This document shows positions 17,926 through 64,000 of a DNA stretch of 64,000 nt, piece by piece (within the stretch, counting starts at the first letter, position 1; each line of letters opens with the position of its first letter). Under the pieces are notes generated by a model that saw only the letters and a program-made list of their open reading frames with translations, was not told the origin of the DNA and did no database searches. Made by a program: the position numbers and the translations under genes. The DNA is from Cryobacterium glucosi (GTDB lineage Bacteria; Actinomycetota; Actinomycetes; Actinomycetales; Microbacteriaceae). The stretch is taken from the NCBI RefSeq assembly GCF_004402235.1, contig NZ_SOFS01000038.1, positions 1 through 64,000 on the forward strand, written 5' to 3'.

Positions 17926-18744
17926 TCAGTCCTTTACTGCGCCGGCGGTCACGCCGGCGGCGACGTAGCGCTGGGCGACGATGAGCAGGATGGCCGCCGG
18001 TATGGACGCGACGACTGCGGTAGCCATGATCGCGTTCCATTGCGAGGTGTTGTTGCCGATGTACTTGTAGATGCCCAGGGTGATCGGCAGGAATTGCCCG
18101 CTCCGGGAGAGGGTCGACGCGAAGATGAAGTCGGACCACGCCCACAGGAAGGCGAACAGGGAGACCGTGATCGCGGAGTTCCGGCTCACGGGCAGCACGA
18201 TCGACCGGAAGGTGCGCCACGGTCCTGCTCCATCGACCGTGGCCGCCTGGATGAGTTCGTTGGGGATACCGGACATGAAGGCAGTGAAGAGGAGGACACC
18301 GAACGGAACGGCGATCGTCGAATCAGCGAGGATCAGGCCACCGACGGTATTGAGGAGTCCGCTGTTCAGGTAGATGGCGTAGAACCCCATCGCCATCACG
18401 ACACCGGGGATCATCTGCGCGACCAGCAGGATGAACGTGAGCGGGGCAGCACCTCGCAAGCGCAATTTGGCGAGCGCGTAGCCGGCAGGCGCGGAGATGA
18501 CGAGCGTGACGACAACCGTGCCAAGGCCGATCAGGAGACTCGTGCCGAGGTATGGCAATTGCTGCGAAAGCACCGCGGTGTAGCCGTCGAGCGTCGGTGA
18601 GAATGGGAAGAGGTTGGGCGGTGAATCGCGCAGATCGCTTGTCTTCGTGAAGGAGACGTTGATCATCCAGTACACGGGAAAGAGCATGACAGCGGTGAGG
18701 AGGAGTCCGATCGCGGTCTTCCACCAGGAGCGTCGATGAGACAT
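17926..18744 (-). CDS. Carbohydrate ABC transporter permease (MalG-like)
   Basis: 272-residue inner-membrane permease with six helices. The EAA loop is at about residues 185-205 (ELIQAATVDGAGPWRTFRSI), the contact site for the ATPase. It is the partner of the permease immediately upstream, with which it overlaps by one base (TAATG). No ATPase gene is in this operon, so a shared MsiK-type ATPase encoded elsewhere is likely, as is usual in actinobacteria. Confidence 0.95.
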   Translation of the reverse strand: MSHRRSWWKTAIGLLLTAVMLFPVYWMINVSFTKTSDLRDSPPNLFPFSPTLDGYTAVLSQQLPYLGTSLLIGLGTVVVTLVISAPAGYALAKLRLRGAAPLTFILLVAQMIPGVVMAMGFYAIYLNSGLLNTVGGLILADSTIAVPFGVLLFTAFMSGIPNELIQAATVDGAGPWRTFRSIVLPVSRNSAITVSLFAFLWAWSDFIFASTLSRSGQFLPITLGIYKYIGNNTSQWNAIMATAVVASIPAAILLIVAQRYVAAGVTAGAVKD

Positions 18745-53969: not shown

Positions 53970-54728
53970 CTAGACGGTGGGCTTGACCGCCTTGACGATG
54001 GCGCTGTGCATGTCGGGGGCGACCTCGTGGGTGTAGTCGACGCTGATCCCGGTGAATCCCGCCCCGGCCAGGGTGTCTAGGTATTCCCGGGGGGAGAGCG
54101 CGCCGGCGATACAGCCGGCGTAGCTGCCGCGCTCGATGCGGTCCTGCTCGCTGAGGTGGTCCTCCGCGACGACGTCGGAGATCCCGAGCCGCCCGCTGGG
54201 CTTGAGGACCCGGAACATCTCCGTGATGACGGCGGTCTTGTCGGCGGAGAGGTTGATCACACAATTGGAGATGATGACGTCGACGGATGCGTCGGGCAGC
54301 GGGATCTCCTCGATCCGGCCCTTGATGAATTCGACGTTCGTGGCGCCGGCCTTGTCCGCGTTGGCCCGGGCGAGGGACAGCATCTCGTCGGTCATGTCGA
54401 GGCCGTATGCAAAACCGGTGGGGCCGACCCGCCGCGCGGAGAGGAGCACGTCGATGCCGCCTCCGGAGCCGAGGTCGAGCACGGTTTCGCCGGCGCGCAG
54501 GTCGGCGACCGCCGTGGGGTTGCCGCAGCCGAGGCTCGCCAGCAGCGCTTCCTCGGGCACTTCGGACCCCTCCCCGCCCGTATAGAGGACCGATCCGAAG
54601 ACGTCGCCGTTCCCGAGGTCGGTGGGAACGCAGCACGAGCCGGATGCAGCCGACACGTCGGTGAGCTGCAGCGCCGCGGCGGCGTAGCGTTCGCGGACGA
54701 GCTCGGTGATGTCTGTCTTTTCAGTCAT
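53970..54728 (-). CDS. arsM: Arsenite S-adenosylmethyltransferase
   Basis: 252-residue class I methyltransferase that methylates As(III). The SAM motif is VLDLGSGGGID (83-93). Arsenic-binding cysteines: C32-C33, C68 (SLGCGNP), C156 (SNCVINLS) and C206 (YAGCIAGAL); the last three match the three essential cysteines of characterised ArsM. It is cotranscribed with arsR (34-bp gap). Confidence 0.96.
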   Translation of the reverse strand: MTEKTDITELVRERYAAAALQLTDVSAASGSCCVPTDLGNGDVFGSVLYTGGEGSEVPEEALLASLGCGNPTAVADLRAGETVLDLGSGGGIDVLLSARRVGPTGFAYGLDMTDEMLSLARANADKAGATNVEFIKGRIEEIPLPDASVDVIISNCVINLSADKTAVITEMFRVLKPSGRLGISDVVAEDHLSEQDRIERGSYAGCIAGALSPREYLDTLAGAGFTGISVDYTHEVAPDMHSAIVKAVKPTV

Positions 54729-54762
54729 GGGTGGTTCCTTCCTTCGGATGATCGCTGCGAGG

Positions 54763-55113
54763 TCATGCGCTGGTCAGCAGCCGCGCGACCGAGTCGAGCG
54801 CGCCGGGTACGAGCGCAAAATGGGCCCAGTTGCCGCGCTGGGTGCGGCTGAGGAATCCGGCGTCGGTCAGGACTTTGAGGTGGTGGGACACAGTGGGCTG
54901 GCTCAGCCCGACCGGTGCCGTCAGGTCGCAGGCGCAGGCTTCCTGACCTTCGGATGCGGCCACGATCGAGATCAGGCGCAGCCGGGTCGGGTCCGCGAGG
55001 GCCTTGAGCGAGCGCGCGAGGTCAACGGCATCCGCCGCGGCGAGCGTCGCGCGCGTCAGCGGCGCGCAGCACGCGCCACGCGAGGCGATGGGGAGCAGGG
55101 AGGTGATCGACAT
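54763..55113 (-). CDS. arsR: ArsR-type arsenite-responsive repressor
   Basis: 116-residue SmtB/ArsR winged-helix repressor. The metal site appears to be C15-C16 at the N-terminus plus C60 or C62 in EACACDL, as in the corynebacterial ArsR type rather than the E. coli helix site. The recognition helix is LSQPTVSHHLKVL. The ATG is six bases after a TATGCT -10 (55125-55120), so the mRNA is probably leaderless. It should bind the five dyads listed at 55133, 55170, 57422, 57456 and 59113. Confidence 0.96.
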   Translation of the reverse strand: MSITSLLPIASRGACCAPLTRATLAAADAVDLARSLKALADPTRLRLISIVAASEGQEACACDLTAPVGLSQPTVSHHLKVLTDAGFLSRTQRGNWAHFALVPGALDSVARLLTSA

Positions 55114-55132
55114 GGGCCCAGCATAGTCGCGT

Positions 55133-55148
55133 ATTGACACTTGTCGAT
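55133..55148. promoter_or_regulatory. ArsR operator 1
   Basis: ATTGACACTTGTCGAT. It overlaps the -35 of the arsD promoter (TTGACA at 55134-55139, 18-bp spacer, CATACT at 55158-55163) and that of divergent arsR (TCGACA on the minus strand). Confidence 0.85.
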
Positions 55149-55169
55149 ATAGAGGGTCATACTGGGGGT

Positions 55170-55185
55170 ATCGATGAATGTCGAT
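55170..55185. promoter_or_regulatory. ArsR operator 2
   Basis: Reads ATCGACATTCATCGAT on the minus strand. It lies at the predicted start of the arsD transcript, 23 bp before the arsD ATG. Confidence 0.82.
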
Positions 55186-55207
55186 ATAGTGAATTGAGGA
55201 GTACGAG

Positions 55208-55636
55208 ATGGCTGCCATTCGAATCTACGAGCCGGCCCTGTGTTGCGAGTCCGGGGTCTGCGGAACCGACACCGACGCATCCCTGGTCACCGTGACCGCC
55301 GACGTGCGCCGGCTCAAGGACCTGGGCGCCGACATCGAACGCCACAACCTCGCCACCGACCCGACCGCCTTCACCACCGACGAGACGGTCCGCGGCTTCA
55401 TGCACACCGTGGGCTCGAAGGGCCTCCCCCTGACCGTCGTCGACGGCGTCACCGTCGCGACCGGCACCTATCCGAGCCGCGACGAACTGCTCGGCTTCGC
55501 CGGCCTCGGTGACTCGTCCAACGTCGCGTCGAAGGTCGCGTCGACGGTCGCGTCGCAGGTCGAGCCGGCCCGGTCCGAGCTGGGCCTCACCGCAAAATCG
55601 GGCGGATGCTGCGGCGGCGCCTCCGGCTGCTGCTAA
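55208..55636 (+). CDS. arsD: Arsenite metallochaperone
   Basis: 142-residue ArsD, which hands As(III) or Sb(III) to the ArsA ATPase. C12, C13 and C18 form the conserved metalloid site. The C-terminus has two vicinal pairs, C134-C135 and C141-C142, with the same spacing as those of E. coli ArsD. GAGGAG lies nine bases before the ATG. The arsA start is 10 bp after its stop. Confidence 0.97.
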   Translation: MAAIRIYEPALCCESGVCGTDTDASLVTVTADVRRLKDLGADIERHNLATDPTAFTTDETVRGFMHTVGSKGLPLTVVDGVTVATGTYPSRDELLGFAGLGDSSNVASKVASTVASQVEPARSELGLTAKSGGCCGGASGCC

Positions 55637-55645
55637 GCCGCCCCG

Positions 55646-57415
55646 ATGCGATTCCTTGAGGACCCACCCCGCTTCCTGTTCTTCACCGGCAAGGGCGGCG
55701 TCGGAAAGACCTCGGTCGCCTGCGCCACCGCCCTCGACCTCGCCGGCCGGGGCAGGAAGGTGCTGCTGGTCAGCACCGACCCCGCCTCCAACGTCGGCCA
55801 GGTATTCGGCCTGACGATCGGCAACACGGTCACTCCCCTCGCGAGTGTGCCCGGCCTCTCCGCCCTCGAGATCGACCCGGAACAGGCCGCAGCGGCCTAC
55901 CGGGAGCGCATCGTCGCGCCCGTGCGCGGCCTGCTTCCGGAGGACGAACTCGCTGGCATCATCGAGGGCCTGTCCGGTTCCTGCACGACCGAGATCGCGT
56001 CCTTCGACGAATTCACCGGCCTGCTCGCCGACGAAGCCGTCTTCGGGCAGTACGACCACATCGTCTTCGACACGGCACCGACCGGGCACACCATCCGCCT
56101 GCTGCAGCTGCCGGGCTCCTGGACCGACTTTCTCGAGGCCGGCAAAGGCGACCCGTCCTGCCTCGGCCCGCTCTCGGGGCTCGACAAGCACCGTTCGATG
56201 TACGCCGCCGCTGTCGCCGCGCTGACCGACCCGGCGCGTACGCGACTGGTCCTCGTCGCCCGGGCGCAGGCATCCTCGCTGGCCGAAATCGAACGCACCT
56301 ACCTCGAGCTGAATCAGATCGGCATCGGCGGCGGTTTCGTCGTCGTCAACGGACTGCTGCCCGCTGCCGCCGGCGACGAGGACCTCACCCGGGCCGTCCG
56401 CGCCCGCGAGGGAGCCGCGCTGGCCGCCATGCCCGCCGCCCTCTCCCGCCTCCCGCTGGACGTGCTCGAGCTCAAGGCCGCCAACATGGTCGGCATCCCG
56501 GCGCTGCAGTCTCTCTTCTCGGCGAGCGCCGGGACGGGCGAATCCGACGAGATCGTTGAGGCCGGGGAACCCCTCCCCGACGCCCCGCTCGCGGCCCTCG
56601 TGGATGCGATCGAACGGGACGACCACGGCCTGGTGCTCTGCATGGGGAAGGGCGGGGTGGGCAAGACCACGATCGCCGCGGCCATCGCGGTCGCACTCGC
56701 CGAACGCGGCCACGCCGTGCACCTCACCACCACCGACCCCGCCGCTCACCTCACCGAGACCCTGCACGGCAGCGTGCCCGGGCTCGCGGTGTCCCGTATC
56801 GACCCGGCCCTGGCCGTGCAGACGTATCGCGACCACGTGATGGCCACCAAGGGCACGGCCCTGGACGCGGAGGGTCGCGCGGCACTGGCCGAGGACCTCC
56901 TCTCCCCCTGCACCGAGGAAGTCGCCGTCTTCCAGCAGTTCTCCCGGGTCGTCCATGAGTCGCGCCGGAAATTCGTCGTCGTCGACACCGCCCCGACCGG
57001 GCACACGCTCCTCCTGCTGGATGCGACCGGTTCCTATCACCGCGAAATGGCGCGGCAGATCGGCGACTCGCTTCCGTTCACGACACCATTGATGCGTCTG
57101 CAGGACCCGGCCCTGACCAAGGTCATTCTGGTTACCCTCGCGGAGACGACCCCGGTGCTCGAGGCCGAAGGTCTGCAGGACGACCTCGAACGTGCCGGCA
57201 TCCACCCGTGGGCCTGGGTCGTCAACGCCTCCCTGGCCGCGGCCCGCCCGGCGTCACCGTTCCTTCGAGCACGCGCTTCGAGCGAGGTCGAACAGATCGA
57301 CCGGGTGCGTCTCCTCGCGGATCGAATGGCCATCGTCGCCCTCCTGCCGGCGGAGCCCATCGGACAGGAGAAGCTGGCGGCACTGACCGCACTCAGCCCC
57401 CAACCGGCACGGTGA
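55646..57415 (+). CDS. arsA: Arsenical pump-driving ATPase
   Basis: 589-residue two-domain ArsA. P-loops GKGGVGKT at residues 15-22 and about 334-341; DTAPTGHT signal motifs follow each. Metalloid cysteines at about 112, 171 and 422 match C113/C172/C422 of E. coli ArsA. It energises arsenite efflux by the membrane transporter; here the partner is Acr3-type rather than ArsB. Follows arsD in one operon. Confidence 0.97.
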   Translation: MRFLEDPPRFLFFTGKGGVGKTSVACATALDLAGRGRKVLLVSTDPASNVGQVFGLTIGNTVTPLASVPGLSALEIDPEQAAAAYRERIVAPVRGLLPEDELAGIIEGLSGSCTTEIASFDEFTGLLADEAVFGQYDHIVFDTAPTGHTIRLLQLPGSWTDFLEAGKGDPSCLGPLSGLDKHRSMYAAAVAALTDPARTRLVLVARAQASSLAEIERTYLELNQIGIGGGFVVVNGLLPAAAGDEDLTRAVRAREGAALAAMPAALSRLPLDVLELKAANMVGIPALQSLFSASAGTGESDEIVEAGEPLPDAPLAALVDAIERDDHGLVLCMGKGGVGKTTIAAAIAVALAERGHAVHLTTTDPAAHLTETLHGSVPGLAVSRIDPALAVQTYRDHVMATKGTALDAEGRAALAEDLLSPCTEEVAVFQQFSRVVHESRRKFVVVDTAPTGHTLLLLDATGSYHREMARQIGDSLPFTTPLMRLQDPALTKVILVTLAETTPVLEAEGLQDDLERAGIHPWAWVVNASLAAARPASPFLRARASSEVEQIDRVRLLADRMAIVALLPAEPIGQEKLAALTALSPQPAR

Positions 57416-57421
57416 CCGTGA

Positions 57422-57437
57422 ATCGACATTCGTCGAT
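57422..57437. promoter_or_regulatory. ArsR operator 3
   Basis: ATCGACATTCGTCGAT, seven bases after the arsA stop codon and upstream of acr3. Confidence 0.82.
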
Positions 57438-57455
57438 AGAGTGGGAACGCGTCAT

Positions 57456-57471
57456 ATCGACGTTCATCTAT
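57456..57471. promoter_or_regulatory. ArsR operator 4
   Basis: ATCGACGTTCATCTAT, 34 bp after operator 3. The pair of sites implies a separate, ArsR-controlled promoter for acr3 within the ars operon. Confidence 0.78.
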
Positions 57472-57496
57472 TCATTTTCTGATGGTGCGGAGCCCC

Positions 57497-58591
57497 ATGC
57501 CCTTCCCTGAAACCCCGACCGTTCCATCCGTCGCCACCCCGATCACCGCTCCGGCCCGTCTCGGGTTCACCGACCGGCTCCTCCCGGTCTGGATTCTCGC
57601 GGCGATGGGTTTCGGCCTCCTGCTCGCGGTCGCCGCCCCCGGCATCGGCACGCTGCTCGGCGCGTTCACGATCGGCTCGGTCAGCGTGCCGATCGCCATC
57701 GGCCTGCTCGTGATGATGTATCCGGTGCTCGCGAAGGTGCGGTATTCGGATGCCCGCGCCGTGGCCGGCGATAAGCGCCTTCTGGTCTCGTCGCTCGTGA
57801 TGAACTGGCTCGTCGGGCCCGCGCTGATGTTCACGCTCGCCTGGATCTTCCTGCCCGACCTGCCCGAGTACCGCACCGGGCTGATCATCGTCGGCCTCGC
57901 CCGCTGCATCGCGATGGTGCTGATCTGGAACGAACTCGCCTGCGGGGACCGCGAGGCCGCCGCCTTCCTCGTCGCCATCAACTCCGTCTTCCAGGTCTTC
58001 GCCTTCGCGGCGCTCGGCTGGTTCTACCTGCAGATCCTTCCGGCCTGGCTCGGCCTGTCCACCACGAGCGCGGACTTCTCGATCTGGGCCATCACGGCGA
58101 GCGTGCTCGTGTTCCTCGGCATCCCGCTCCTGGCCGGATACCTGTCCCGCCGGGTGGGCGAGGCCACCCGCGGCCGGGACTGGTACGAGGCCCGGTTCCT
58201 GCCGAAGGTCGGGCCGTTCGCCCTCTACGGGCTCCTCTTCACGATCGTGCTCCTGTTCGCCCTGCAGGGCAGGCAGGTCATCGACCGGCCGCAGGACGTC
58301 GCCCGCATCGCCCTGCCGCTCCTCGTCTACTTCCTTGTGACGTTCCTCACCGGCTTCCTGCTCGGGAAGCTCATCGGCCTGCCGTACGAGCGCACCGCGA
58401 CCCTCGCCTTCACTGCGGCGGGCAACAACTTCGAGCTCGCGATCGCGGTCGCGATCGGCACCTTCGGTGCCGGCAGCGGTCAGGCCCTCGCGGGCATCGT
58501 TGGCCCGTTGATCGAGGTCCCCGTCCTCGTCGCCCTCGTCTACGTGGCGCTCTGGCTCCGGCCCCGCCTGTTCCCGGCGCCGCGCAGCTAG
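57497..58591 (+). CDS. acr3: Acr3-type arsenite efflux permease
   Basis: 364-residue, ten-helix Acr3 transporter of the BART superfamily. The essential cysteine of helix 4 lies in GLARCIAMVLIWNELACGD, and the helix-9 TAAGNNFELAIAVAIG motif is intact. It exports As(III). ATG at 57497 has GGAG upstream; ATG at 57482 is also in frame. It is convergent with arsC and has its own pair of ArsR sites. Confidence 0.96.
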   Translation: MPFPETPTVPSVATPITAPARLGFTDRLLPVWILAAMGFGLLLAVAAPGIGTLLGAFTIGSVSVPIAIGLLVMMYPVLAKVRYSDARAVAGDKRLLVSSLVMNWLVGPALMFTLAWIFLPDLPEYRTGLIIVGLARCIAMVLIWNELACGDREAAAFLVAINSVFQVFAFAALGWFYLQILPAWLGLSTTSADFSIWAITASVLVFLGIPLLAGYLSRRVGEATRGRDWYEARFLPKVGPFALYGLLFTIVLLFALQGRQVIDRPQDVARIALPLLVYFLVTFLTGFLLGKLIGLPYERTATLAFTAAGNNFELAIAVAIGTFGAGSGQALAGIVGPLIEVPVLVALVYVALWLRPRLFPAPRS

Positions 58592-58670
58592 CGCTCAACC
58601 ACGACGAATCCCGCCAAGAGCGCAGGCCGAAGTGGCCACCCGAGCAGCGGCACCCGTCGTGGCCGTCGGC

Positions 58671-59081
58671 TTAGACGCTCGCGGGCAGGAGCTCGGCGAG
58701 GAGGGCCTCGACGCGCGCCTTGATGTCGTCGCGGATCGGGCGCACCTCGTCGATGCTCTTGCCCTTGGGGTCGACGAGCTCCCAGTCCTCGTAACGCTTG
58801 CCGGGGAAGATCGGGCAGACGTCGCCGCAGCCCATGGTGATGACGACGTCGGACTCGCGCACCTGCTCGGTGGTCATCAGCTGCGGAACGGCCTGGGAGA
58901 TGTCGATGCCCTCTTCGCTCATGGCCTGGATCGCCATCGGATTGATCTGGTCACCCGGCTCCGAGCCGCCGGAGCGCACCTCGACGGCGCCGCCGGACAG
59001 GGCGCGCATATAGCCGGCGGCCATCTGCGAGCGACCGGCATTGTGGATGCAGACGAACAGGACGGTGGGCTTCTCAGACAC
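58671..59081 (-). CDS. arsC: Arsenate reductase, LMW-phosphatase type
   Basis: 136-residue arsenate reductase with the phosphatase-like loop C11-x5-R17 (CIHNAGR), the D104-P catalytic loop and further cysteines C85 and C89 (GCGDVCP) that could serve the thiol relay. It reduces arsenate to arsenite for ArsA/Acr3 export. GTG start with GAGGA upstream. Its promoter (TATACT at 59115-59110) is overlapped by ArsR operator 5. Confidence 0.95.
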   Translation of the reverse strand: MSEKPTVLFVCIHNAGRSQMAAGYMRALSGGAVEVRSGGSEPGDQINPMAIQAMSEEGIDISQAVPQLMTTEQVRESDVVITMGCGDVCPIFPGKRYEDWELVDPKGKSIDEVRPIRDDIKARVEALLAELLPASV

Positions 59082-59167: not shown

Positions 59168-60184
59168 CTAGCCGAAACGGCCGTTGACGTAGTCGGCGGT
59201 GCGGCTGTCGATCGGGTTGCCGAACATGGCGTCGGTCGGCCCGTGCTCCACGATGCCGCCGGGCGTGCCCTGGGCGGCGAGGAAGAACGCGCAGTTCTGC
59301 GACACGCGCTGTGCCTGCTGCATGTTGTGCGTCACGATCACGATCGTGACCTCGTGGGCGAGCTCGAGCATGGTCTCCTCGATCACCCGCGTGGAAGTCG
59401 GGTCGAGGGCCGAGCACGGTTCGTCCATCAAGAGGATGCGCGGGGTCACCGCGAGCGACCGCGCGATGCACAGACGCTGCTGCTGCCCTCCGGAGAGTCC
59501 GGAACCGGGCGCGCGCAACCGGTCGCGCACCTCCTTCCAGAGCCCGGCCTTGGTCAGGCAGCTCTCGACGAGGAAGTCTTTCTCATCGTTGGAGGCACGC
59601 TTGCCGGTGAGGGTGAGCCCGGCGATGACGTTGTCGTAGATCGACATGGCCGGGAACGGGTTGGGCTTCTGGAACACCATGCCGATGCTCTTGCGGGCGT
59701 CGACGAGCTTGCGTTCGGGGTCGTAGATGTCCTCACCGTCGAGGAGGACTTCACCGGCGAGGCTCGCGGACGGCACGAGCTCGTGCATCCGGTTCAGGAT
59801 GCGCAGGAACGTGGACTTGCCGCAGCCGGACGGGCCGATCAGGGAGGTGATGATGCCGGCCGGCATGGTGAGGTTGACCCGGTCGAGCACCTGGCGTTCG
59901 CCGAACCAGGCCGAGACGTTGCGGCCCTCGAGGGTTGCGAGTGGTGCGATCTCGCGCACCGGCGGGCTGAAGCTCGCGTAGACCCCGGCATCCGCGGCAG
60001 ACGGCCGCTTCAGCCAGGGCGCGCTGAAGCCTCCGAGCCGGGGAGCCTTGACCGGCGCGTCGGCCACGACCTCGGGCCGGGCCTCGGTCCTCGCCTGCGC
60101 GCGCTGCTTGCGGTCACGCCGGACCGGTCCCTTCACCGGCGGCAGCACCTGGGTGAGCTCGTCGTTCTGCACATTGTCGGTCAT
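59168..60184 (-). CDS. PstB-like phosphate-type ABC ATPase with N-terminal extension
   Basis: 338-residue ABC ATPase. Residues about 85-338 are a complete PstB-type domain: Walker A GPSGCGKST (117-125), VFQKPNPFPAMSIYDNV, signature LSGGQQQR (230-237), Walker B ILLMDEP (250-256). Canonical PstB is about 250-260 residues; here about 85 extra N-terminal residues, basic then Pro/Ala-rich, precede it. No PstS, PstC or PstA gene is in the window. It sits at the distal end of the sortase-like/WxL-like/DUF916-like gene run, after three tandem 17-bp repeats. Confidence 0.9.
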   Translation of the reverse strand: MTDNVQNDELTQVLPPVKGPVRRDRKQRAQARTEARPEVVADAPVKAPRLGGFSAPWLKRPSAADAGVYASFSPPVREIAPLATLEGRNVSAWFGERQVLDRVNLTMPAGIITSLIGPSGCGKSTFLRILNRMHELVPSASLAGEVLLDGEDIYDPERKLVDARKSIGMVFQKPNPFPAMSIYDNVIAGLTLTGKRASNDEKDFLVESCLTKAGLWKEVRDRLRAPGSGLSGGQQQRLCIARSLAVTPRILLMDEPCSALDPTSTRVIEETMLELAHEVTIVIVTHNMQQAQRVSQNCAFFLAAQGTPGGIVEHGPTDAMFGNPIDSRTADYVNGRFG

Positions 60185-60204
60185 GACACTCGTTTCATTG
60201 GTCT

Positions 60205-60255
60205 ACAGCAGTTTCGGGACTGAAGCAGGTTCGGGACTACAGCAGGTTCGGGAGG
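60205..60255. repeat. Three tandem 17-bp repeats at the end of the sortase-like gene
   Basis: Units 60205-60221, 60222-60238 and 60239-60255 share the core AGCAGKTTCGGGA. The rightmost unit encodes the last codons (P-N-L-L) and stop of the sortase-like gene; the other two are noncoding copies of it filling the gap to the ATPase gene. Confidence 0.88.
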
Positions 60256-61388
60256 AGGCGCACGAGTTGGTCGGCCACGAAGAGCCCCCCGACAGTGACA
60301 ACCGGAAGGAAGACGATCCAGGTCTTGCGGAGGCCGACCCGGCGGAACGCCCAGACGGCGGCGAGTTCGATGACCAGCAGGAACTGCAGGGCGAAGACGA
60401 GGGCCCACACCGTTGTGGTGTCGGTCGCGAGTTCCTTGTCCTGCAGGGGCAGGGTCGCGAAGGTGGTCTGGCGCTTGCCGGCGGGCTTCGTCTCGGAGAC
60501 GAGTTCGGCATCCACGCGCACGACGCCGCTCGGCACGTAGGCCGGCCCGCGGGCGCTCTCGAGGATCAGTCGGCTCTTGCCTGCACCGAGGCTTGCGGGT
60601 GCGGGGTCGCCGGCGTAGCGCAGGCCGAGCACCGAGAACGTCTGCTCGCCCTGGCCGGTGATCACGGTGAACTGCTGGCCGGGGCGCAGTTCCTGCAGCC
60701 GGGCGAACGGACCACCGTAGGCGGCGGCGCGGCCCATGAGCACGCTGATGCCGGACTGGCCGGGTAGCGGCGTGTCGCGGCGATGGCCGGGGCCGGCGCG
60801 CAGGGTGCCGGAGTCTGTGCCCTCGACGACGATCTCGTGCACGTCGATCGAGGGGATGTCGAGCACGGCCACGGGTGTGCCGGAGGTGAGCAGCACCTTG
60901 TCGACGGTGCCCTCGCTGACCGGGGCCGTTCCCTGGGCGAGCTCGTACCGGAAGGTGTTCGTGAGCTGCTGCTGGGACACGATGTGCTGCAGCTGGCCGA
61001 GCACGGTCAGGTTGGCGAGGAACCCGAAGATGAGGATGGCGAGAATCGCCAGGGTCGAGCGGATGACCTGGTCGCGCTGGGTGAGCACGACCGGCGGCCG
61101 AGGGGGCGGCGGGCTACGCCGCGGCGGCGTCGGGATCTTCGGTGGTTTCGGCGGCTTGCCCTGGCGGCCGCGCTCCGGCGGTGTGCCGGGGAGTCCGCCA
61201 CCACCGCCCAGAGTGCCCGGGCCGGGCGGTGACCAGTCCCGGGGTCCCGCGGACTGTCCCGCGAGGGGGTGGACCGCCTGCATCTCGGAAACGCCGGGCG
61301 AAACCGGCGGGACCCAGCCTCGCGGCATTCTCGGCACCTTCGGCACCGTGGGGCGTTGGGGACGACGGGGCAGCCTGGCTGTCGTCAT
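60237..61388 (-). CDS. Sortase-fold membrane protein lacking catalytic His and Cys
   Basis: 383 residues: Pro/Gly-rich cytoplasmic segment (1-100), transmembrane helix (about 110-132), sortase-like beta-barrel (about 165-300) and two C-terminal helices (about 326-347 and 356-376). Class E sortases have G-H-R-x-x-Y-G-x-P-F at the catalytic His; here it reads MGR220AAAYGGPF. The L-x-T/L-C strand reads RLILESAR with no Cys, and the protein has no cysteine at all in this domain. It is therefore probably a non-catalytic or structural member. Starts with a 4-bp overlap (ATGA) with the preceding gene. Confidence 0.78.
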   Translation of the reverse strand: MTTARLPRRPQRPTVPKVPRMPRGWVPPVSPGVSEMQAVHPLAGQSAGPRDWSPPGPGTLGGGGGLPGTPPERGRQGKPPKPPKIPTPPRRSPPPPRPPVVLTQRDQVIRSTLAILAILIFGFLANLTVLGQLQHIVSQQQLTNTFRYELAQGTAPVSEGTVDKVLLTSGTPVAVLDIPSIDVHEIVVEGTDSGTLRAGPGHRRDTPLPGQSGISVLMGRAAAYGGPFARLQELRPGQQFTVITGQGEQTFSVLGLRYAGDPAPASLGAGKSRLILESARGPAYVPSGVVRVDAELVSETKPAGKRQTTFATLPLQDKELATDTTTVWALVFALQFLLVIELAAVWAFRRVGLRKTWIVFLPVVTVGGLFVADQLVRLLPNLL

Positions 61389-62125
61389 GACGCCACCTCT
61401 TCCGCGAGTTTGGGGGTGGGCCGCGGTACGAGGAGCACGAAGCGGAGGATCAGGGTCAGCGTGCCGGCGATCGCGAGCGCGATCAGGGCGAAGTAGGGCG
61501 GGATGATGCTGAACGAGTCCCGGGTGACGGGCGAGAGCGCCGTGCCGCCGATGTCCGCGGGAGGCGTCATGGTGACGTGACCCTTGAACCAGGCCCACTG
61601 GCCGACGTCCCGAATGGTGGCCGAGACGGTGCGGGTCTCATTGGGGGCGAGGCTGTCGATACTGACCTTGTCGACGATGGCGACGGGGAGGTCGACCGCG
61701 TTGTCGAGCCAGAAGCGCAGGCTCGAGGTGATCGGGGCATCCGTGATGTTGCGCATCGTGAAGTCGAGCACCATGGTGCCGCCGCCCGGCCCGGCCTCAG
61801 AATCGATGCGTGTCGTGAGGCCGCTCACGTAGAAGACGCCCGCGATCTTGGTCGGGTTCGCGCCGAGCGCCGAGGCCGCGGCGGCGGTGTCCTTGATCGT
61901 CGTTTGGGTCACCGCGGGCACGGCCACGGATTTCACCGGGTTCGTGACGGCCGGGGTCGTCGTCGCCCGGCTCGACGGCCCGACGACACCCACGCTGATG
62001 CCCACACCGTTCGGGTCATCCGTCGCCGCCTGTGCACTCATGGCGAGTCCGGCCAGGCCCGCCACCGGCGCGAACGCGATGAGGGCCACGACCAGAATCA
62101 GGCGCGCGTGAGCGGATGTGAGCAC
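61385..62125 (-). CDS. Membrane protein with DUF916-like C-terminal (DUF3324-type) domain
   Basis: About 246 residues: signal peptide ending near ...SAQAA, low-complexity segment, one beta-sandwich domain (about 80-210) and a C-terminal transmembrane helix with a short basic tail. The segment SLAPNETRTVSATIRDVGQWAWFKGHV parallels MLPGSSRTVTLTVSGVGAWVYLNPHV of the gene at 63256, so the two share a domain. The start is uncertain: GTG at 62125 follows CTAACT closely (leaderless layout); TTG 62131 and TTG 62176 are alternatives. Function unknown; probably binds the WxL-like protein. Confidence 0.72.
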   Translation of the reverse strand: MLTSAHARLILVVALIAFAPVAGLAGLAMSAQAATDDPNGVGISVGVVGPSSRATTTPAVTNPVKSVAVPAVTQTTIKDTAAAASALGANPTKIAGVFYVSGLTTRIDSEAGPGGGTMVLDFTMRNITDAPITSSLRFWLDNAVDLPVAIVDKVSIDSLAPNETRTVSATIRDVGQWAWFKGHVTMTPPADIGGTALSPVTRDSFSIIPPYFALIALAIAGTLTLILRFVLLVPRPTPKLAEEVAS

Positions 62126-62256
62126 AGTCAAGTTAGTCCATTCGAGGTTTCGGCGAGCTGACGGGCGGGCAAACAAGAGGCAAACACAGCAGGAAACCGA
62201 GCCTCGCTCATTCCGTGCCGTACGAGCGCGACAGGATAGAGTCGGCGACCGGCCGG

Positions 62257-63165
62257 CTACTGGGAAACGAGGGTGAGGGAGAGGGTGGATCGGTAGGTGC
62301 CGACTGACTTCTCGGGCGGCGCGACGAAAGTGAGGCCGGCGTTGAGCACGGTCGTGCCCACGGTCTGGGCCGGGGCGGCCACGGCGAGGTTCATCGGATA
62401 CGTCGCCGAACCCGCGGTCTGGGCGGTGACGAGGCTCACCCCGGTGGCGTCGGTGCTGACCAGCTGCGGCGCGAGCCCGAGCTGGGAAGCACCGATCACG
62501 CTGCCGTCCGCGGCGTTCACGAAGTCGGCGACATCGGCCGACAGGATCCAGCCTTCCTGGGTGAGCACCCGGGAGTCGCTGACCGCGAAGCTGCCCAGGA
62601 CACCGGTGGTCGTCGACCGGTTCGAGACCAGCACCGGGGCATTGAACGCGGCGACGGCAGCGGCGGGCACGACGAGGCTGAGCACGCCGTTGGTGTCGCT
62701 CGTCGTTGCAGATCCGATTGTTCCGGCGTCCGTCACGGCGAAGGATGCCGCCACCTGGCTGAACGGGTCGTCCGCGGCCGTGGTGCCGATCACCTCGATG
62801 GTGTGTCCTCCGGCCTCGAGGTCGGGGGGAAGGGTGCCGCTGCCTGCGAAGTCACCGGCAGCGTCGGCGTTTCCGCTGATCAGCAGGAACGGAGTGGAGT
62901 GCACCCAGACCTCGACGTGCGAAAACGGCTTGAGCCCGCGGATGGTGACGTACACCGGCGCCGAATCGACCCGCGAGCCGACCGGGAGCACACAGTGGAT
63001 CTCGACGGGCCCGTTCGGAAGCTTGTCGGCCACACTCACCGTGAGCGCGACCCCCCCACTGTCATCGGCCTGCGCCACGGACGAGATGGAGACCGTCCCG
63101 ACCAGAGCAAGCAGGGCGACCAGTGCGCCGGTGATGAGAGTCGAACGGATGGGCAGTTGGAACAT
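62257..63165 (-). CDS. WxL-like secreted surface protein
   Basis: 302 residues: signal peptide (about 1-33, ending AQA), Ig-like N-terminal half (about 38-145) and a C-terminal domain (about 155-302) resembling the WxL cell-wall-binding domain: W206-I-L in LTQEGWILSADVADFVNAADG, and the closing V-G-T-Y-R-S-T-L-S-L-T-L. The second W-x-L of firmicute proteins is replaced by L-T-L. No membrane anchor or LPxTG is present, so attachment must be non-covalent, plausibly through the DUF916-like partners. GGGGA lies before the ATG. Confidence 0.72.
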   Translation of the reverse strand: MFQLPIRSTLITGALVALLALVGTVSISSVAQADDSGGVALTVSVADKLPNGPVEIHCVLPVGSRVDSAPVYVTIRGLKPFSHVEVWVHSTPFLLISGNADAAGDFAGSGTLPPDLEAGGHTIEVIGTTAADDPFSQVAASFAVTDAGTIGSATTSDTNGVLSLVVPAAAVAAFNAPVLVSNRSTTTGVLGSFAVSDSRVLTQEGWILSADVADFVNAADGSVIGASQLGLAPQLVSTDATGVSLVTAQTAGSATYPMNLAVAAPAQTVGTTVLNAGLTFVAPPEKSVGTYRSTLSLTLVSQ

Positions 63166-63255
63166 GTGTTTCCCCGATGGATCCTGGTGCGGTGGAGCTG
63201 CGGTGCCTGGGTGAAACTGCAGGGCAGTGGAGCAAGGCGTGCGGAGGTGCAGTGG

Positions 63256-64000
63256 TTACGGTGTCGGGTTGTGCGCGGCGGCGCCGTCCGCGCTGGCGCC
63301 CACGAGGGCCTCTTCGCGAGCCTTGCGGCGCGCTTCCGCCTCGGTGTATTCGATCCACGCCGCAGCCCGGGTCGAGTCGCGCTTGCGGCTGAGCCTCACG
63401 ATGAGCCAGGTCACGGCCGCGACGAGAAGGAGGAGCAGGAAGGCCCACGGCACCACGACGAGGCTCGAGTCGCGTTCCGCGGTCGGCAGGGCTCCTGGGT
63501 TGAGTGCGTCGGGGTCGATCGTGCCGACGAGGGAGACATGCGGGTTGAGGTAGACCCAGGCGCCGACGCCGGAGACGGTCAGCGTCACGGTGCGGGAACT
63601 TCCCGGAAGCATCTCCGAGATCTCCTGGTCAGTCAGCCCGGACAGGGGGATGCCGAAGATGCCCTTGACCTGGGAGACCGTATTGGCCCCAAGGGACACG
63701 TTGCCGGTGTTGGTGAGGCTCACTCGGATCTTCGTGTCGCCGGCGAAGGGGTTGATGCTGCCCTCATAGGCGGATTCAATGCTGCTGATCGTCAGCGCCG
63801 GCTGCAGGAGACCCTTGACGCGCACATACAGGCGGATGGCGACGCGCCGGTCGACCGAGACCTGCCCGGCCGGGGAGAGGGCCGAGACGACGATGCCGCC
63901 GGCGTGGTCGCCGGGCTTCGCCTCGGCCGGGGTCTTCATTGTGAACGGGAGCACCTGCTGGGCGCCCGGTTCCAGGGTGACCGAGACACGGCCGGTACCG
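63256..64000 (-). CDS. DUF916-like (WxL-interacting) membrane protein, 5' end outside window
   Basis: Only the C-terminal 247 residues are visible; the reading frame is open to the window edge. PFTMKTPAEAKPGDHAGGI is characteristic of the DUF916 (WxL-interacting, peptidoglycan-binding) domain. Next come a second beta-sandwich of the DUF3324 type, a transmembrane helix (LVVVPWAFLLLLLVAAVTWLI) and a cytoplasmic basic tail. It would anchor WxL-like proteins to membrane and wall. It is first visible gene of the five-gene run toward the PstB-like ATPase. Confidence 0.85.
   Translation of the reverse strand, partial: GTGRVSVTLEPGAQQVLPFTMKTPAEAKPGDHAGGIVVSALSPAGQVSVDRRVAIRLYVRVKGLLQPALTISSIESAYEGSINPFAGDTKIRVSLTNTGNVSLGANTVSQVKGIFGIPLSGLTDQEISEMLPGSSRTVTLTVSGVGAWVYLNPHVSLVGTIDPDALNPGALPTAERDSSLVVVPWAFLLLLLVAAVTWLIVRLSRKRDSTRAAAWIEYTEAEARRKAREEALVGASADGAAAHNPTP

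Follow-up and report, generated by a model that had tools for sequence, protein, structure and literature searches.

Why should a sortase-fold protein without catalytic residues be encoded among phosphate transporter genes, and what kind of system do these genes form? The question is raised by one end of a 64,000-base stretch of Cryobacterium glucosi DNA, called here the window (bases 1-64000 of the 91,950-base contig NZ_SOFS01000038.1, or C24, of a 3.93-Mb genome; of the organisms with names, Cryobacterium breve and C. algoricola stand closest to it). An original prediction saw in five consecutive minus-strand genes at 59168-64000 a WxL/DUF916 surface complex joined to a dead sortase and a Pst-type ATPase, with a possible link to phosphate uptake, an interpretation that is supported with some corrections. 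All five genes are present. Past base 64000 lie the pstSCA-like genes that it proposed to look for, and with them genes for a further WxL-like protein and two more proteins of PstS type. The core conserved between loci consists of seven genes, pstC-pstA-pstS1-pstS2-pstS3-srtX-pstB. The WxL/DUF916 part, though frequent, is lacking from some complete clusters. We therefore see the locus not so much as a WxL complex that has gained an ATPase as a modified Pst transporter, to which a wall-binding module may be added. On balance, we think that it probably encodes a second, dedicated Pst-type ATP-binding cassette (ABC) importer, whose parts are fixed together in a complex of wall and membrane. The genes are as follows.

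59168..60184, minus strand: pstB, a Pst-type ABC ATPase of 338 amino acids with about 80 extra N-terminal amino acids, matching TIGR00972
60237..~61388, minus strand: srtX, a class E-like sortase fold, catalytically dead (PF04203, E 5.5e-12)
61385..~62176, minus strand: tmX, a secreted and membrane-anchored protein with its TTG start at 62176 or 62131 and no Pfam family
62257..63165, minus strand: wxlB, a WxL-like secreted protein of 302 amino acids (PF13731, E 0.022)
63256..64000 and on to C24:64359, minus strand: wxlip, a WxLIP (DUF916)-type protein of 367 amino acids with a C-terminal transmembrane anchor (PF06030)
C24:64485-65570, beyond the window, same strand: wxlA, a second WxL-like protein
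Past wxlA, outside the window, same strand: pstS3, a secreted PstS-like protein of 364 amino acids
Outside the window, same strand: pstS2, a giant anchored PstS-like protein of 893 amino acids
Outside the window, same strand: pstS1, an anchored PstS of 563 amino acids
Outside the window, same strand: pstA and pstC, Pst-type permeases

Judged from the sequence, the cluster is likely to be a single transcript. The srtX ATG overlaps the tmX stop (ATGA); with the starts chosen, genes also overlap at pstS1/pstS2, pstA/pstS1 and pstC/pstA, and no terminator-like site was found on the cluster strand within locus L004:3500-19500.

Is this grouping peculiar to one genome? We mapped 62 srtX loci: our own, 18 named, 20 from the family, 1 from another family of the order, 20 from the class (16 genomes) and 2 from elsewhere in the phylum. 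The mapped DNA includes one or more pst genes in 61 of these loci, and in 59 it includes pstB. The core is complete, with all seven genes, in 28, many of the others being cut by contig or locus ends; only L116 has no pst gene, and it is a 5.6-kb fragment from the end of a contig. Nor is the association circular: apart from our own locus, which came with the window, and L108, found via PstS1, each locus was located with srtX as the query, not with a pst gene. Thus srtX keeps company with pst genes across genera and families, and because of this conservation the cluster is not due to chance. An srtX profile match at E <= 1e-30 occurs in 60 of 299 family genomes (own included), covering 31 of 85 genera. 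Outside the family but within the order, 1 of 23 genomes had a close PstS1 (E <= 1e-150). A class-wide draw gave a long srtX match (E <= 3e-38) in 17 of 98 genomes (own included) from nine families, two partial matches (G410 and G400) not being counted; the next genome stands at E 4e-17, a clear gap, and matches at that level resemble ordinary sortases. Of 90 genomes drawn from across the phylum, two that do not belong to the class had a distant long srtX match (E 8e-28). In their loci, L139 and L140, a dead sortase adjoins pstC, the genes are ordered differently and pstB is followed by a PstS1-like gene; the arrangement is possibly an early form of the system.

Is the sortase really dead? SrtX has a basic, proline-rich N-terminus, one transmembrane helix, a sortase barrel, two further transmembrane helices and a C-terminal LLPNLL; the barrel fold is predicted, and our own SrtX has no Cys in the whole protein. 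Across 60 loci (61 alignment rows, less one of the two L051 rows, which is out of frame at the His position), the Cys position holds Ala in 51, Ser in 6, Thr in 2 and Gly in 1, and the His position Arg in 57 and Lys in 3. The remaining loci, L139 and L140, were read separately and have Ser at the Cys position (TTSNP and VTSDG); these two motifs were used to fix the Cys register by eye on Ala278, as a MAFFT alignment of srtX with our genome's own class E-like sortase put the Cys column off by one and misplaced the Arg column. By eye, the catalytic Arg appears to be missing from its expected place in the alignment A1 (the computed column, misplaced as it is, has Arg in 7 of 22 rows); the distant L139 seems, also by eye, to retain it (ASERLVV). 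The two other sortases of the genome, which match PF04203, have Cys in LTSC and LVTC and His in AAHRS and IAAH. The claim of a sortase fold without catalytic residues therefore stands for Cys and His across the loci, and the fold is under strong purifying selection despite their loss. Three of the 18 named loci are absent from the alignments A1 and A2, which hold the other 15: L040 and L047 are near-copies, and in L051 srtX is split over two frames. In the last of these, from Cryobacterium breve ERMR7:08, srtX, wxlA and wxlB were matched piecewise in different frames, possibly through sequencing errors. A plasmid search with srtX gave no match.

SrtX could still be an enzyme with another nucleophile, and the cluster a system for sorting or assembly. 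This would fit the barrel and the GHRRDT, MGR and PN motifs, which are strongly conserved, and the hydroxyl residues at the Cys position (Ser or Thr in 8 of 60 loci, Ser also in both distant members); however, the predominance of Ala at that position, the Arg or Lys that replaces His in every one of the 60 loci and the absence of an LPxTG-like motif from the last 60 residues of all 11 own proteins make this the most improbable of the explanations considered here.

What, then, does the dead sortase accompany? The two permeases exceed the curated cut-offs for TIGR02138 and TIGR00974, and PstS1 that for TIGR00975. The ATPase was rightly called PstB-like, with a TIGR00972 match at E 3.7e-98 over residues 85-338, though its 327.8 bits fall slightly below the cut-off of 343.2. 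PstS1 carries its own C-terminal transmembrane helix, and none of the three PstS-like proteins in our cluster is a lipoprotein. The ligand residues of PstS1 are partly retained: equivalents of Arg135, Ser139 and Gly140 occur in 49, 51 and 52 of 53 rows, respectively (49 cluster copies and four extra PstS-WxL fusions). At position 56, the aligned columns of the 49 cluster copies hold Glu in 44, Asp in 3 and Ser in 2. All 15 ordinary PstS controls have Asp there; a sixteenth control row, L130, was excluded as a cut piece of a cluster PstS1 with no letters at this position. PstS2 and PstS3 are distant from ordinary PstS; in PstS2 the predicted PstS fold lies within an anchored protein of some 900 residues. 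Fold-search matches cover residues 347-801 of PstS2, while its N-terminal 345 residues, scarcely sampled, had no fold match, and a PDB sequence search with the protein gave none. PBP_like_2 matches 3 of 11 PstS3 members.

The second part of the cluster is the wall-binding module. The DUF916-like anchored protein was correctly recognised: over its full length it matches PF06030 at E 6.9e-9, above the cut-off, with a hydrophobic segment at 302-320, and all nine members of the WxLIP alignment (A6) match this family at E <= 0.1. tmX, which has two hydrophobic segments and had been predicted to be a second anchored protein with a DUF3324-type domain, does share its C-terminal domain with the WxLIP protein (hhalign probability 99.3, E 2e-20), but no scan of the own proteins gave the DUF3324 name. 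By profile, wxlB is a weak WxL-like protein. Five of 13 WxL-like members match PF13731 at E <= 0.1 (best E 0.0006), and wxlB aligns with other WxL-like proteins, with GW and Y.S..T motifs in common, but wxlB itself reaches 15.2 bits against a cut-off of 25, and our own wxlA has no match. WxLIP is found in 44 and WxL in 35 of the 62 srtX loci. The genes of the proposed surface complex are thus together with the Pst-type ATPase, and conserved, but the WxL/DUF916 part is optional and not core. For the WxL clusters of Firmicutes, a published account (PMC9772566) proposes attachment to peptidoglycan and describes an LPxTG partner as frequent but not required.

Variation in these surface proteins bears on another explanation, namely, that the cluster is an ABC machine acting on the wall, which would move or strip a phosphate-bearing polymer linked to the wall (teichoic acid, for instance) and import no free phosphate. 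Three receptor-like proteins beside a wall-binding WxL/WxLIP module would suit such a machine. In four Microbacterium loci, a PstS1-like and a WxL-like C-terminal domain are fused in one open frame after pstB, with Asp at position 56 in each fusion copy.

L041:12084-13781: PstS-WxL fusion frame, Microbacterium
L042:12168-13763: PstS-WxL fusion frame, Microbacterium
L043:12093-13790: PstS-WxL fusion frame, Microbacterium
L045:12078-13640: PstS-WxL fusion frame, Microbacterium

In three loci without WxL (L100, L101 and L103), PstS3 has a long additional C-terminal part that looks Ig-like by eye. The altered residues of the PstS1 site (Asp to Glu and Phe to Trp) point the same way, as does the coexistence of an ordinary PstS, of which at least one match was present in each of the 16 genomes with the special PstS1 (own included) in the genus and order surveys. 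PstC, PstA and PstB nevertheless score as subunits of a Pst importer, and we consider the wall machine unlikely.

A separate contig of our own genome carries an ordinary pstSCAB, in which PstS is a lipoprotein; the genome's two PstS matches lie on C24 and C41. An 11-base direct repeat resembling a PHO box precedes pstS in this ordinary operon (L107:5850-6300). Is the cluster regulated by phosphate as well? With a strict PHO box pattern, the 20 cluster promoters yielded a single site and the canonical promoter none. With a looser score, 6 of 20 cluster promoters reached p <= 0.02 and the canonical promoter scored 23.3 (0 of 200 shuffles); this score was devised by us after the canonical repeat had been seen by eye, and the canonical result is therefore not an independent control. 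Phosphate regulation is plausible for some clusters from these promoter repeats.

The genes on either side of the cluster suggest two further explanations. Upstream lies a candidate partner in signaling and, directly downstream of pstB, an arsenic cluster.

C24:73791-75842 (L109:1792-3843), same strand as the cluster: PASTA-domain Ser/Thr kinase, just upstream of pstC
53970-59081 of the window: arsM-like, arsR, arsD, arsA (two ATPase halves), ACR3-type transporter and arsC genes

Relatives of the kinase adjoin the cluster in 11 of 20 family loci (10 of 20 at a stricter threshold), upstream of pstC in six and directly after pstB in five, an adjacency that suggests a link to wall sensing in the family. 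The cluster might accordingly be a wall or phosphate sensor and not a bulk importer, with degenerate receptors reporting status partly via the adjacent kinase. Known Pst systems also signal to PhoR, and the distance of PstS2 and PstS3 from ordinary PstS would be in keeping with such a role. On the other hand, no kinase above threshold was found in the 18 named, 1 order, 20 class and 2 phylum loci (the 18 named being cut before pstC, and L118 having weak kinase pieces), and the full permease and ATPase are retained; we doubt that sensing is the main function. Arsenic-linked uptake, by an arsenate-discriminating Pst beside the ars genes, would explain the downstream neighbours, and Glu at position 56 could alter selectivity. 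The same ars genes occur in two of 39 other loci, both from close Cryobacterium (L036, and L051 without the ACR3 gene), whereas 37 have none of them, although the 20 family loci reach only a few kilobases past pstB. We regard this explanation as very unlikely, and a link to ars genes as a general feature was rejected. Separately, in the class locus L129 a frame resembling arsC (17995-18444) was noticed by eye some 1.6 kb beyond pstB.

How would the dedicated importer that we favour work? PstS1, anchored by its C-terminal helix, would bind phosphate or a closely related oxyanion and pass it to the PstC/PstA channel, with PstB providing ATP. PstS2 and PstS3 would not be ordinary carriers but, with the dead sortase, a membrane-side scaffold, and the WxL, WxLIP and tmX proteins, where present, would attach the assembly to peptidoglycan. 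The old substrate groove of SrtX most likely holds, uncut, a peptide tail or linker of PstS1, PstS2 or PstS3, a grip that would keep the receptors docked on PstCA. Several observations weigh against this proposal. The PstS1 ligand may not be phosphate, because Glu replaces D56 in most cluster copies and Trp replaces F11 in all 52 rows with a letter there. The predicted models of SrtX and PstS2 are of moderate confidence (mean predicted local distance difference test scores of 58.7 and 57.9), and a profile comparison of PstS3 with PstS1 is weak (hhalign probability 7.2, E 0.005). WxL and WxLIP are both missing from the complete family clusters L093, L100, L101 and L103. Our own cluster promoter has no PHO-box-like repeat by the looser score (p 0.52). 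The system is patchy even within the genus, a close PstS1 (E <= 1e-150) being present in 14 of 36 other Cryobacterium species. Locus L115 has the gene set without pstB nearby, and in class loci L127, L128 and L130-L134 srtX lies between or beside pstS2 and pstS3, away from pstB. A broader form of the proposal, a phylum-wide Pst-derived importer in which a pseudo-sortase peptide clamp holds tandem receptors in a wall-spanning relay, possibly drawing phosphate from wall or environmental polymers and reporting to the PASTA kinase, is offered tentatively, and we find it rather doubtful.

How much of this is new? The permeases, the ATPase and PstS1 are members of the Pst family; the new element is a pseudo-sortase that constantly accompanies a transporter. 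Among the titles listed from the open-access literature searched, none concerned the combination of pst genes, dead sortase and WxL proteins, in keeping with the original prediction, which did not recognise it as a described system, and none described a sortase fold that serves a transporter as a subunit without enzymatic activity. Interest in sortases has centred on their enzymatic activity and on their value as drug targets; in this case selection maintains the fold although the catalytic Cys and His are gone, and it accompanies a transporter in distantly related actinobacteria. The system offers a testable example of an enzyme that has become a structural part, and of an ABC importer secured to the cell wall. 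In many actinobacterial genomes, genes that profiles label 'sortase' and 'PstS' may be parts of a single complex not yet described. How these bacteria acquire phosphorus is also at issue, as a further Pst-type system with an altered receptor site exists beside the ordinary one.

In comparison with known systems, the cluster shares with PstSCAB (Escherichia coli, and Mycobacterium tuberculosis PstS-1) its permeases, its ATPase and, in most PstS1 copies, the equivalents of Arg135, Ser139 and Gly140, but differs in having three PstS-like proteins, none a lipoprotein in our genome, Glu for Asp56, a dead sortase and wall-binding proteins, and in existing alongside an ordinary PstS. With the WxL/DUF916 (Csc) clusters of Firmicutes it has in common a WxLIP_PGBD (DUF916) protein, two WxL-like secreted proteins and a C-terminal domain in two anchored proteins; unlike them it is actinobacterial, has own WxL-like proteins below the cut-off, lacks an LPxTG protein and has its module tied to an ABC transporter and absent from some clusters. 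The two other sortases of the genome (L104 and L105) are of the same PF04203 fold family as SrtX but keep Cys and His and lie on other contigs (C26 and C19). Compared with the class E sortases SrtE1 of Streptomyces coelicolor (5cuw) and SrtE of Thermobifida fusca (9iok), SrtX has lost Cys, His and apparently, by eye, Arg; it has two extra C-terminal transmembrane helices ending in a conserved PN motif, and it is found with pst genes in nearly every locus mapped.
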